From the NCBI RefSeq assembly GCF_001687625.2, contig NZ_CP016538.2, positions 2,758,501-2,822,500 on the forward strand: 64,000 bases of DNA. The letters run 5' to 3'. Both the position numbers and the translations under genes were made by a program. The notes below the pieces were generated by a model. That model made no database searches, had not been told where the DNA came from, and worked only from the letters and a program-made list of their open reading frames with translations. The stretch comes from Planococcus maritimus (GTDB lineage: Bacteria; Bacillota; Bacilli; Bacillales_A; Planococcaceae). This document shows, in pieces, positions 479 through 52,140 of the stretch (position 1 is its first letter; the number at the start of each line of letters is the position of its first letter).

Positions 479-514
479 AAAAAGCCTGAGCTTAACCGCT
501 CAGGCTTTTTTTAT
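479..514. terminator. Bidirectional terminator, left copy flanking repeat A
   Basis: An 8-bp GCCTGAGC/GCTCAGGC stem with loop TTAACC sits between A and T tracts and can work on both strands. All 36 bases, loop included, recur identically at 750-785, on the other side of a 235-bp repeat. Confidence 0.9.
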
Positions 515-749
515 GTGTTGAAGAAGTCTATGGTTTGCACCCAATTATGAAAAAAGAGGATCTTTTTCCATTTTCAACAGTCAATGGCTTCTCCAAGTAT
601 TTGGAGAAGCGTTCGCTCGACTCCGGTGGACCAGCGAGACGACCGAGACCCCGCAAGGCGCAAAGCGACTGAGGAGGCTTGGGCGCGAGCCCACGGAAAG
701 CGAGCGATAAGCTTCGGAAAATACGACTTTCAACTTTCTCGATAACCTG
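515..749 (+). mobile_element. Terminator-nested repeat element, copy A
   Basis: A 235-bp non-coding element between two identical terminators. It starts with TTGAAGAAGTCTATGG and ends with CTTTCTCGATAACCTG. Inside, in order, are an A-tract/T-tract hairpin, a CTCCAA/TTGGAG hairpin with loop GTAT, the block GAAGCGTTCGCTCGACTCC, and a GC-rich part with a TGGGC-GCGA-GCCCA hairpin (a GNRA-type loop). The same order is found at 9619-9929 (inverted), 15189-15425 and 31021-31246, and as a half copy at 52029-52140. It has no credible gene. Calling it mobile is inferred from its dispersal and from the duplicated flanks. Confidence 0.7.
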
Positions 750-785
750 AAAAAGCCTGAGCTTAACCGCTCAGGCTTTTTTTAT
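750..785. terminator. Bidirectional terminator, right copy flanking repeat A
   Basis: Identical over 36 bases to 479-514. Read on the minus strand it ends the MFS gene, whose stop codon (784-782) lies inside this copy. Confidence 0.9.
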
Positions 786-9588: not shown

Positions 9589-9618
9589 AAAAAGCCTGAG
9601 GAGAACCTCAGGCTTTTT
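9589..9618. terminator. Terminator copy flanking repeat B, mhqD side
   Basis: Stem AAAGCCTGAGG/CCTCAGGCTTT. It ends no obvious gene here, since mhqD starts from a promoter only 3 bp away. It is a near copy of 9930-9958, which follows hslO. Confidence 0.85.
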
Positions 9619-9929
9619 GCAGACTGTCACGAAAGTTAAGAAGTCGTATTTTTCGAAGCTTATCGCTCGCTTTCCGTGGGCTCGCGCCCAAGCCTCCTCA
9701 GCCGCTTTGCGTCTTGCGGGGTCTCGGTCGTCTCGCTGATCCACAGGAAAGATAAGGTCGACCTACGGGAGACCTTATCTTTGCGAAAGTAATGCGCAGC
9801 ATTATTGAGCAGAAGGGGTTACGAGCGAACGCTTCTTCAAATACTTAGAATCGTCTTTGATTATTGAATGTTGAAAAAAGTGGTCTCTTTCGTATTTGAT
9901 AACAAACTTTAGACTTTTTCAACCCTCTC
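9619..9929 (-). mobile_element. Terminator-nested repeat element, copy B (long form)
   Basis: An inverted copy of the element at 515-749, 311 bp long. The hslO side carries the TTGAAAAAGTCTA end and the mhqD side the AACTTTCGTGACAGTC end. It differs by about 75 extra bases after the GC-rich block, including a perfect 12-bp hairpin AAAGATAAGGTC/GACCTTATCTTT (9748-9782). A 71-codon open frame in the GC-rich block is judged spurious. The element occupies almost all of the 450-bp space between hslO and mhqD. Confidence 0.65.
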
Positions 9930-9958
9930 AAAGAGCCCGAGGAGAACCTCAGGCTTTT
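9930..9958 (-). terminator. Terminator of hslO, copy flanking repeat B
   Basis: Stem GCCCGAGG-AGAA-CCTCAGGC with T run, six bases after the hslO stop on the minus strand. It differs from 9589-9618 at two bases and one T. Confidence 0.85.
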
Positions 9959-9964
9959 GTGAAC

Positions 9965-13978: not shown

Positions 13979-15175
13979 ATGGAAAAACGCAAATACACGG
14001 TACGCGACCGCAATTTCTGGAAAATCATCGCCAGCTTGTTGCTGGCTTCATTGTTTATTTTCGCCAATATATATGCCGTTCAGCCTTTGCTGCCGGTATT
14101 TGTCGCCGATTTCGGGATATCGGTTTCCACTTCCAGCCTGTCTTTGTCGCTGACTATCGTCGGGTTGATTGTTGGCCTGATCGTTCTCGGGTTTTTTTCA
14201 GACCGCAACGGCCGGCGTTCCTATATCATCTGGTCGCTGGCCGGTTCTGCCATCCCATTTTTCATCTTGCCGTTTGTCGAATCCTTTAGCATTTTTCTCC
14301 TGCTGCGCTTGATTCAGGGCTTCGCACTGGCAGGAGTTCCTGCCGCTGCACTCGCTTATATCAGTGAAGAGATCGACCGTAAGAATATTGCTTATGCTAC
14401 TGCTTTATACATATCGAGCAATGCTCTTGGCGGCATGCTCGGACGCGTCCTGACCGGATTTTTGACCGATGCGCTTTCCTGGCAGCTGACATTTTTGGGA
14501 TTTGGCGCAACTGGCTTTGCTTTATTTATTGCTGTGTTTTTGCTACTGCCGCCCTCTCATCATTTTGAACCGAGCGAACTGAGCTTTTCAAAAGACATCG
14601 AAGGCTTTCTGTTCCATTTAAAAAACCCGTCATTGCTCGTGGTATTCGGGCTTGGGGCCATTCTCCAAATCGCCTTTACCGGAGTCTGGACGTATTTACC
14701 GTTCCATCTTGAAAAACCGCCCTTCTCCATGTCGCTGCAGGCGATTTCTTATCTATTCTTCGCTTATGGCATCGGGGTCATCGGTTCGCCGCTTGCTGGC
14801 CGCGTCGCCGAAGTGTTCGGCTTACGGCGTGTCCGCATCATCGGCGTGTTCATTTTTTCGGCTGGTATCTTAATGACACTCTCCCCAGTGCTATGGATGG
14901 TAGCCGTGGGTTTATGTGTGGCATGTCTCGGTTTTTTCACCGCCCACTCGCTGACTGCCGCTTCTGTCGGCCAGCAAGCTACGCACCATAAAGGCAGCGC
15001 CTCCAGCCTTTATCTTGTGTCTTACTATATTGGCGTCGCTGCCGGAAGTTCGTTGCTCAGCCCGATTTGGACTCGTTTCGGATGGAATACATTGATCTTG
15101 CTATGCGCCATCATGCCGGCCTGCTATGTATTGCTCGTCTCTTGGTACAGAAAAAGAGCCGCCTCAGTTATGTGA
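13979..15175 (+). CDS. MFS transporter (YybF/YgaY-like)
   Basis: A 398-residue twelve-segment major facilitator. Motif A variant GFFSDRNGRRS lies near residue 75 after the second segment. Similar proteins are Bacillus YybF-type exporters of unknown substrate. The start is uncertain: ATG at 13979 is used, but a TTG three codons earlier (13970) is possible, and GGAAG at 13962 sits awkwardly for both. The last codons overlap the terminator hairpin at 15150-15188, and the gene converges on the DASS carrier. Confidence 0.85.
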   Translation: MEKRKYTVRDRNFWKIIASLLLASLFIFANIYAVQPLLPVFVADFGISVSTSSLSLSLTIVGLIVGLIVLGFFSDRNGRRSYIIWSLAGSAIPFFILPFVESFSIFLLLRLIQGFALAGVPAAALAYISEEIDRKNIAYATALYISSNALGGMLGRVLTGFLTDALSWQLTFLGFGATGFALFIAVFLLLPPSHHFEPSELSFSKDIEGFLFHLKNPSLLVVFGLGAILQIAFTGVWTYLPFHLEKPPFSMSLQAISYLFFAYGIGVIGSPLAGRVAEVFGLRRVRIIGVFIFSAGILMTLSPVLWMVAVGLCVACLGFFTAHSLTAASVGQQATHHKGSASSLYLVSYYIGVAAGSSLLSPIWTRFGWNTLILLCAIMPACYVLLVSWYRKRAASVM

Positions 15176-15188
15176 GGCGGCTCTTTGC
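15150..15188. terminator. Terminator copy, left of repeat C
   Basis: Stem AGAGCCGCCTCA/TGAGGCGGCTCT overlapping the end of the MFS gene. Near copy of 15426-15463, with three substitutions and one A. Confidence 0.9.
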
Positions 15189-15425
15189 AGAGAGTTGAAG
15201 AAGTCTATGGTTCGCTCTCAACTATCAAAAAAAGTGTCTTTTTCTGTTTTCAACAGTCAATAACCTCTCTAAGTATTTGTAGAAGCGTTCGCTCGACTCC
15301 GGTGGATCAGCGAGACGACCGAGACCCCGCAAGACGCGAAGCGGCTGAGGAGGCTTGGGCGCGAGCCCACGGAAAGCGAGCGGTAAGCTTCGGAAAATAC
15401 GGCTTCTTAACTTTCTCGACAACCC
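15189..15425 (+). mobile_element. Terminator-nested repeat element, copy C
   Basis: A 237-bp copy, directly oriented like copy A, with the same ends (TTGAAGAAGTCTATGG and CTTTCTCGACAACCC) and the same internal order. The A-tract/T-tract hairpin is kept while its loop differs, which points to conserved structure. An open frame of 114 codons runs through it but has no ribosome binding site or independent support. Confidence 0.7.
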
Positions 15426-15463
15426 GAAAAGAGCCGCCCCAGTTGTCTGAGGCGGCTCTTTGC
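15426..15463. terminator. Terminator copy, right of repeat C; ends the DASS gene
   Basis: Stem GAGCCGCCCCA/TGAGGCGGCTC two bases after the DASS stop codon, read on the minus strand. Confidence 0.9.
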
Positions 15464-30991: not shown

Positions 30992-31020
30992 AAACACCCC
31001 GACAATGATGTCGGGGTGTT
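30992..31020. terminator. Terminator copy, left of repeat D
   Basis: Stem AACACCCCGACA/TGTCGGGGTGTT. No gene ends here: rbsR starts upstream on the minus strand. It is a near copy of 31247-31275. Confidence 0.9.
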
Positions 31021-31246
31021 GAAGAAGTCTATTAATCCATTACGAATTAGAATGAAGTCGTTTTTCTACATTCAATAATCAATGATCTTTCTAAGTATTT
31101 GGAGAAGCGTTCGCTCGACTCCTGCGGGATCAGCGGGTTTGAGAGACCCCGCAGGAACGAAGTGACGAGGAGGCTCGATTCCCGCCCCGAGGAAAGCGAG
31201 CGATAAGCTTTGGAAAATACGATTTCTTACCTTTCTCGACAAACTG
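31021..31246 (+). mobile_element. Terminator-nested repeat element, copy D
   Basis: A 226-bp copy directly oriented with A and C. The ends and the CTAAGTATTTGGAGAAGCG block are conserved. The GC-rich core differs: CCTGCGGG pairs with CCCGCAGG, giving a hairpin not seen in A or C. This core resembles repeats common in Bacillaceae intergenic regions (from memory). Confidence 0.7.
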
Positions 31247-31275
31247 AAACACCCCGACAATGGTGTCGGGGTGTT
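31247..31275 (-). terminator. Terminator of the cstB operon, right of repeat D
   Basis: Stem AACACCCCGACA/TGTCGGGGTGTT five bases after the rhodanese-like stop codon; one base differs from 30992-31020. Confidence 0.92.
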
Positions 31276-45707: not shown

Positions 45708-45978
45708 AAAAAGACTCTTCTCCCCACATCCAAGATGCAAGGGGCGAAGAGTCTCTAATCGCGGTACCACCCTAATTCACTGCCCCTTGTGCAGGCAGCC
45801 TCATTAATATCATGCATAACGGGCATGAAGCGGATGGGCCTACTGAAGTTTCAGCACATCTATTCGGGAGTGCTGCCGCATGCCGGAACCACTGATTCGC
45901 ACCACCCATCAGCTCTCTTTTGGATCCCTCTGCATACGGCCTATCTCCGTCGCAATAGTTAGTCGATATAATTGAATT
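45708..45978 (-). ncRNA. T-box riboswitch, serine-type specifier
   Basis: The minus strand carries the T-box core GGGTGGTACCGCG (45772-45760) and, after it, a terminator with AAGACTCTTC/GAAGAGTCTT arms (45710-45754). Stem I can be drawn: GCCGTATGC pairs with GCATGCGGC, and an upper hairpin CTGAT...ATCAG has loop GGGTGGTGCGA. The internal loop just below GCATGCGGC reads AGC followed by A, the position of the specifier, giving a serine codon. It precedes an aminotransferase-serA operon, which fits. Confidence 0.9.
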
Positions 45979-51997: not shown

Positions 51998-52028
51998 AAA
52001 GCCGGCCATACAAAATGGCCGGCTTTTC
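51998..52028 (+). terminator. Terminator of the SDR gene, beside truncated repeat E
   Basis: Stem AAAGCCGGCCAT/ATGGCCGGCTTT. Unlike the other repeat loci, no second copy is present on the far side. Confidence 0.9.
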
Positions 52029-52140
52029 TATAGTATTGAAGAAGTCTATGGTTCGCTCTCAACTACCAAAAAAGAATGTCTTTTTCTAGTTTCAACAGTC
52101 AAATGACCTCTCTAAGTGTTTGGAGAAGTTCTCGCTCGAC
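52029..52140 (+). repeat. Truncated copy E of the terminator-nested repeat
   Basis: The first half of the element, from TTGAAGAAGTCTATGG to TTCTCGCTCGAC, is over 85% like copy C by eye. It breaks off eight bases before the ytvA stop codon. The GC-rich half and the expected second terminator are missing, so ytvA lacks a visible terminator. Confidence 0.75.

Follow-up and report, generated by a model that had tools for sequence, protein, structure and literature searches.

A probable IS1182-family MITE in Planococcus maritimus that duplicates its target hairpin

A short element that recurs in a 64-kb stretch of the Planococcus maritimus genome (the window, i.e., the whole stretch of DNA analysed) is in our view a MITE belonging to an insertion sequence (IS) of the IS1182 family, and one that duplicates the hairpin at which it inserts. 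We give this reading a probability of about 0.88. Judged from sequence comparisons, the element was shown to insert at palindromes, which here are mostly terminator-like hairpins situated at the ends of genes: one hairpin was present before insertion, and after insertion there was a hairpin on both sides.

Copies 1 to 4 of the window were each found between two copies of one hairpin, at essentially the same coordinates as those given in the original prediction. Copy 1 (515 to 749, + strand), whose left end is without the outermost CAGA, lies between a terminator hairpin with its tail at 479 to 514 and a second copy of this segment at 750 to 785. This is a target-site duplication in which, as had been reported for this site, 36 of 36 positions agree. 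Copy 2 (9620 to 9929, - strand) is in the reverse orientation and lies between a terminator hairpin copy at 9589 to 9618 and a diverged one at 9930 to 9959. It has an internal insertion and measures 310 bp, about 70 bp more than the approximately 239 bp of the other copies. The added stretch of about 70 bp contains an inverted repeat of its own. Copy 3 (15188 to 15426, + strand) is bordered by terminator hairpins at 15152 to 15187 and 15427 to 15462, and the hairpin of this site is single in five element-free relatives, three of which were aligned. In copy 4 (31021 to 31246, + strand), the left end is shortened; the left hairpin (30992 to 31020) is joined to the element where the outermost CAGAG is missing, and the right hairpin occupies 31247 to 31275. 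Copy 5 (52029 to 52140, + strand) is truncated, with its right half missing, and a terminator hairpin (51998 to 52027) adjoins it on the intact side only. The bounds given by BLAST for copies 1 to 4 start at 511, 9620, 15188 and 31012, respectively. Other features that had been attributed to these copies needed some adjustment. The same order of hairpins is indeed common to all copies once copy 2 is inverted; as read, copy 2 departs from it, being opposite in orientation and longer. Common ends are present, and the true ends lie further out than had been thought (CAGAG...CCTG). The description of the flanking repeats as complete rho-independent terminators holds strictly for some of them, whereas in others the T run is short, partly outside the repeat or absent.

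When the copies were compared genome-wide, the element ends were found to be CAGAGTGTTGAAG... and ...CTTTCTCGACAACCTG, which form an imperfect terminal inverted repeat (CAGAGTGTTGAAGAAGT versus CAGGTTGTCGAGAAAGT) of the kind that MITEs have. The same comparison corrected the span of the element outward, to CAGAGTGTTGAAGAAGTC... at one end and ...ACTTTCTCGACAACCTG at the other. As is also typical of MITEs, the element is short (about 239 bp), gene-less and multicopy, with 40 scored matches among 93 first-look candidates. No catalogued RNA family was found for it in an Rfam search of the window at gathering scores. The sole match in the window was a T-box leader at 45737 to 45962 on the - strand.

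The history of the target sites was read from related genomes, into which four loci (L003, L004, L005 and L017) were traced with one gene-side flank each. The results showed that 17 of the 20 orthologous sites were element-free with one target hairpin and that 3 of the 20 were occupied. At none of the empty orthologous sites of the four loci was the target hairpin present twice. Because the empty sites have one hairpin, its duplication dates from the insertion of the element; together with the repeats in the flanks, the empty sites thus provide the target-site duplication at insertion that is expected of a MITE. This outcome supports the original prediction, according to which the terminator is the target and is duplicated at insertion, and for which a comparison of empty sites in related strains had been proposed. 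The alternative named beside it, that the element carries a hairpin with it, is disfavoured by the correspondence between the hairpin of an occupied site and that of the empty orthologous site.

Some of these sites have features of their own. At the L004 site, the single hairpin of two relatives (G043 and G014) was confirmed by eye and is imperfect; a second, unrelated hairpin is located downstream both in the P. maritimus genome and in the relatives, and G018 has an element core about 550 bp farther along. In G036, the L017 site has a single hairpin with a different stem. The nearest relative was G015, with a flank identity of 96 to 97% at three of the loci and of 91% at the remaining one; the ancestral state is seen in its empty L003, L004 and L005 sites. 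The occupied sites were those of G015 and G018 at L017 and of G001 at L003; in G015, only the right hairpin copy was detected by our script. At the L003 terminator, G001 has an element of a different subtype (L172) between two hairpin copies. It looks like an independent insertion on the same terminator, which suggests that some terminators are targeted repeatedly.

The flanking repeats were scored across the genome, a single contig of 3.28 Mb, in 42 copies (40 scored out of the 93 candidates plus two diverged window copies). The alignment of the left and right flanks of each copy was compared with that of 1560 mismatched flank pairs from different loci, among which the maximum score was 18. 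Both ends were recognised in 40 of the 42 copies. A flanking direct repeat with a score of at least 17 was found in 33 of the 42 copies examined (of 93 candidates), compared with 2 of the 1560 mismatched pairs, and the check that had been suggested, namely, what fraction of genomic copies has paired terminators, thus came out in favour of the prediction. In 31 of the 33 passing copies, the repeat abuts both element ends within 2 nt; L026 and L094 pass on score with a repeat that does not abut both ends. The abutting repeat folds as a hairpin, with the stem starting no more than 3 nt from both repeat ends, in 30 of these 31 copies, the exception being L006. Repeat lengths range from 20 to 41 bp (median, 30 bp), and the stem sequence differs from locus to locus. 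A run of at least four T's was present inside the duplicated segment in 19 of the 31 MITE copies, as read from the repeat list, and the rest had a shorter run or none. In window copy 4, the repeat detected is only part of the hairpin because the element end is missing there.

No repeat was detected at the threshold in 9 of the 42 copies. The score was below 17 despite the presence of two ends in L008, L020, L022, L024, L093, L095 and L096. Inspection by eye revealed two diverged hairpins in L020 and L095 and one clear hairpin retained in L008, L022, L024 and L096; the hairpin of L093 is degenerate. L030 and L090 have no recognisable end pair. Among 29 element loci taken from other genomes, two putative ends were present in 21; 9 passed the strict rule, and many of the remaining loci are core-only matches.

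The link to the IS1182 family was drawn from autonomous elements with similar ends. The transposase halves of L033 and L057 had NF033551 (IS1182) as their best NCBIfam match, with E values of 3e-60 to 2.8e-73. Each half alone reached 204.5 to 247.5 bits, under the 270-bit cut-off of NF033551, the gene being read in two frames; DUF772 and DDE_Tnp_1_6 were over their cut-offs in the L033 and L057 transposases. Another IS, L101 of genome G001, has the ends CAGGCTGTCGAGAAAC and CAGAGTGTTGAGAAAC and is flanked by a perfect hairpin duplication of 36 bp. Its ends match the two unequal ends of the MITE at 14 to 15 of the first 15 bases and at 11 of the first 11 bases; after these 11 bases, the CAGAGTGTTGA end of the MITE differs from the L101 end. 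L101 is thus an autonomous partner that shares both ends with the MITE, over 11 to 15 bases. For a comparison of the cores, seven MITEs were prepared and three were scored. The 5' non-coding end of L101 aligned with the MITE core with z scores of 9.9 to 13.3 against dinucleotide shuffles (three MITEs), and with z scores of 9.1 to 11.6 when the terminal 18 nt were left out (three MITEs). The corresponding end of L057 is nearly the same as that of L101 by eye. In both L057 and L033, one end matches the MITE well and the other in part. No internal alignment with the MITE was found for the 5' end of L033 (z, -0.3 to 3.1). In L103, which comes from another genus, one end aligned moderately (z, 7.5 to 8.0) and the other did not (z, 0.0 to 1.2). 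Given that L101 shares both ends and the GC-rich core with the MITE, the latter is best read, on sequence grounds, as an internally deleted relative of an IS of the L101/L057 type. L033, L101, L103 and other IS1182 elements of the family have in common with the MITE the ends CAG-NN-TGT-N-GA-(C/G)AAA and the abutting hairpin duplications; the autonomous elements of the genus and family differ from it in that they carry a transposase.

PF13751, the IS1182-type DDE domain, gave matches in 18 of 46 genomes from the genus, a set of 46 that includes the P. maritimus genome (G000). In G000 itself, no IS1182 transposase was found with either PF13751 or the L057 transposase half, and a partner in the same genome, as looked for in a MITE, was accordingly missing. 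Because neither search found a transposase there, we infer that mobilisation of the MITE in trans would lie in the past. Other DDE_Tnp_1_6 lineages of the genus (e.g., L031/L032, L035 to L038, and L041 to L043) had neither CAG..TGT ends nor a hairpin repeat and were not counted as support.

The transposase gene is read in two frames in L057 (approximately 2268 to 2290), L033 (approximately 2265 to 2285) and L101. ORF1 (190 to 196 amino acids) stops just past the conserved GGAAAAAAGC, a sequence through which the -1 frame continues uninterrupted into ORF2. A programmed -1 frameshift at A-AAA-AAG is possible in L057 and in two IS with ORF2 proteins that share 92% and 76% identity with that of L057.

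Hairpin duplications were also found around the IS. Among 60 loci with an IS1182-type domain, 27 had both ends according to a loose pattern, and these were reduced to 25 by counting two repeated loci once (L057 is the same as L100, and L033 is the same as L102); L199 and L200 appear to be L057 and L033 again. The 33 loci without a recognised end pair are other lineages, contig ends and remnants. An abutting hairpin duplication of 19 to 52 bp was present in 20 of the 25 IS loci, a count to be read with the mismatched-pair control covering the MITE set only. The partner IS therefore displays at these 20 loci the palindrome targeting that has been reported for some IS1182 members. The remaining five IS loci (L057, L106, L114, L116 and L117) have a hairpin at each end, with two different sequences. 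L202, from Vibrio, has a 22-bp hairpin duplication, and in L201, from Pseudomonas, the hairpins of the two ends are different. The unequal hairpins of L106, L114, L116, L117, L057 and L201 are probably products of recombination between copies, and IS copies of this kind could help to map rearrangements. A run of four T's at the 3' end of the segment was absent from 18 of the 20 IS duplications. It therefore seems that the IS target the inverted repeat rather than termination itself. Duplication lengths are listed as variable for the IS1182 family in ISfinder. The accessible text of one report gives a 4-bp direct repeat for ISPse1, an IS1182-family element of Paracoccus, so the family is not uniform (PMC3281130).

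The geometry of the duplications was determined by an axis test on the reconstructed pre-insertion sites of 31 MITE copies and 19 IS copies, with L101 and the five unequal-hairpin loci left out. The midpoint of the duplication lay no more than 1 nt from the palindrome axis in 29 of the 31 MITE copies (all except L015 and window copy 4) and in 19 of the 19 IS copies. Both cuts were located within 2 nt of the stem feet in 26 of the 31 MITE copies and in 12 of the 19 IS copies, and hairpin length was correlated with duplication length (r of 0.73 for the MITEs and 0.65 for the IS). Since the duplications vary from 19 to 52 bp, they are not the product of a fixed stagger. We are moderately inclined to the explanation that the DDE transposase measures its target by structure. 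An extruded hairpin or cruciform would undergo strand transfer at each of its two feet; the duplication would thereby be the hairpin itself (19 to 52 bp), without a fixed stagger, and the same family would duplicate the hairpin or remove it, as in IS1272, depending on the foot attacked. Gap filling would copy the stem-loop, and in this way the duplication length would follow the hairpin. In the accessible part of PMC5678879, stem-loop duplication corresponds to pathway (b) of the model presented, where it is drawn as a possibility beside the hairpin-replacing pathway of IS1272.

Several IS duplications (L104, L105, L113 and others) end symmetrically inside a longer palindrome. The stem foot is therefore not always the cut point, and these stops, which the foot rule does not explain, leave room for a reading that differs from the preferred one only in how the palindrome is read: a dimer would bind two half-sites of a linear palindrome and cut symmetrically with flexible spacing, no extruded hairpin being involved. 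However, fixed half-site binding does not easily account for duplications of 19 to 52 bp whose stem sequences differ, and both cuts fall at the stem feet in the 26 MITE copies mentioned above; we consider this reading possible but rather doubtful. A single-stranded DNA route similar to that of IS200/IS605, in which hairpins on one replication strand would be entered and the second copy would arise by replication repair, appears very improbable. Hairpins form easily in single strands, IS200/IS605 and REP-type elements use hairpins, and, as single-stranded DNA, the element has a better fold than shuffled versions of it (z, -3.7). Nevertheless, its ends are terminal inverted repeats common to DDE-bearing IS1182 elements, its duplications are symmetric about the palindrome axis, and its 40 copies are found on both strands (7 on + and 7 on - in one contig half and 15 on + and 11 on - in the other, the contig start being assumed to be the origin). 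It is hardly conceivable that the paired terminators are older than the element, or owe their continued similarity to gene conversion, with the element merely having settled between them, for even if terminators of one locus could recombine, and some pairs are diverged and others identical, the 17 element-free orthologous sites have one hairpin, including three in G015, where the flanks are 96 to 97% identical. With insertion at the feet of the hairpin, the reading that we prefer, the terminator would be doubled rather than broken, which would cost the neighbouring genes little and allow copies to accumulate.

The element query matched all 46 genomes of the genus, some of the matches listed being weak and core-only. 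In an even draw across the order, 117 of 200 genomes matched, and among the matches listed all were in the same family. Full-length matches were confined to part of the genus, and those outside the genus were almost wholly to the GC-rich core, again among the matches listed. This core (element positions of approximately 90 to 211) matches far more genomes than the element ends do, and its wider reach may reflect a separate role or other MITE lineages with the same core. Named relatives found via the transposase include Planococcus and Planomicrobium. The plasmid collection contained no match to the element.

A transposon that reads shape and doubles its terminator could be almost harmless to its host, and this would help to explain the dozens of copies in one chromosome. 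The 51 natural insertions with a clean hairpin duplication (31 of the MITE and 20 of the IS), with matched empty sites at four loci, form a set suited to examining whether extruded cruciforms are attacked by a DDE transposase. Together with the hairpin-deleting IS1272, they make a natural pair for finding what decides between duplication and loss of the hairpin.

Several known systems resemble the element in part. Group IIC introns also prefer positions beside intrinsic terminators; in contrast to the MITE, they are retroelements with an RNA fold and are not known to duplicate the hairpin. IS1272 and TnSha1 of staphylococci belong, like the MITE, to the IS1182 family, have ends of about 16 bp, and use inverted-repeat targets without a sequence consensus. 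According to the accessible text of the two papers on them, they insert in hairpins, several of which are confirmed terminators, and delete them wholly or partly, and palindrome targeting by some IS1182 members is cited there from a review (PMC4923244, PMC5678879). In IS1272, as described in these texts, the hairpin is deleted or replaced without duplication, whereas here the target hairpin is kept and duplicated (PMC5678879, PMC4923244). In Methanosarcina acetivorans, the IS1182-family MITEs that are related to ISMac2 are similarly short derivatives (160 and 169 bp, in 14 and 7 copies), but their direct repeats are 4 and 0 bp, with the table columns taken as the sizes of the inverted and direct repeats, and hairpin duplication is not mentioned in the part of the source that was available (PMC3852290). 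In the sections available of a review of prokaryotic MITEs, IS1182 is not named in the main text (PMC10969869). A MITE duplicating terminators, or a survey of hairpin-set duplications, was not found in the open-licence literature searched, to the extent that its texts were accessible (including PMC4438569). The claim that the element is unlike known elements was therefore only partly right, as hairpin-targeting IS1182 elements are in print, as far as the accessible text of the reports goes (PMC4923244, PMC5678879). Hairpin targeting by the IS1182 family was already known; what is new is the MITE family, together with the evidence that the duplication is determined by the hairpin instead of by a fixed stagger.
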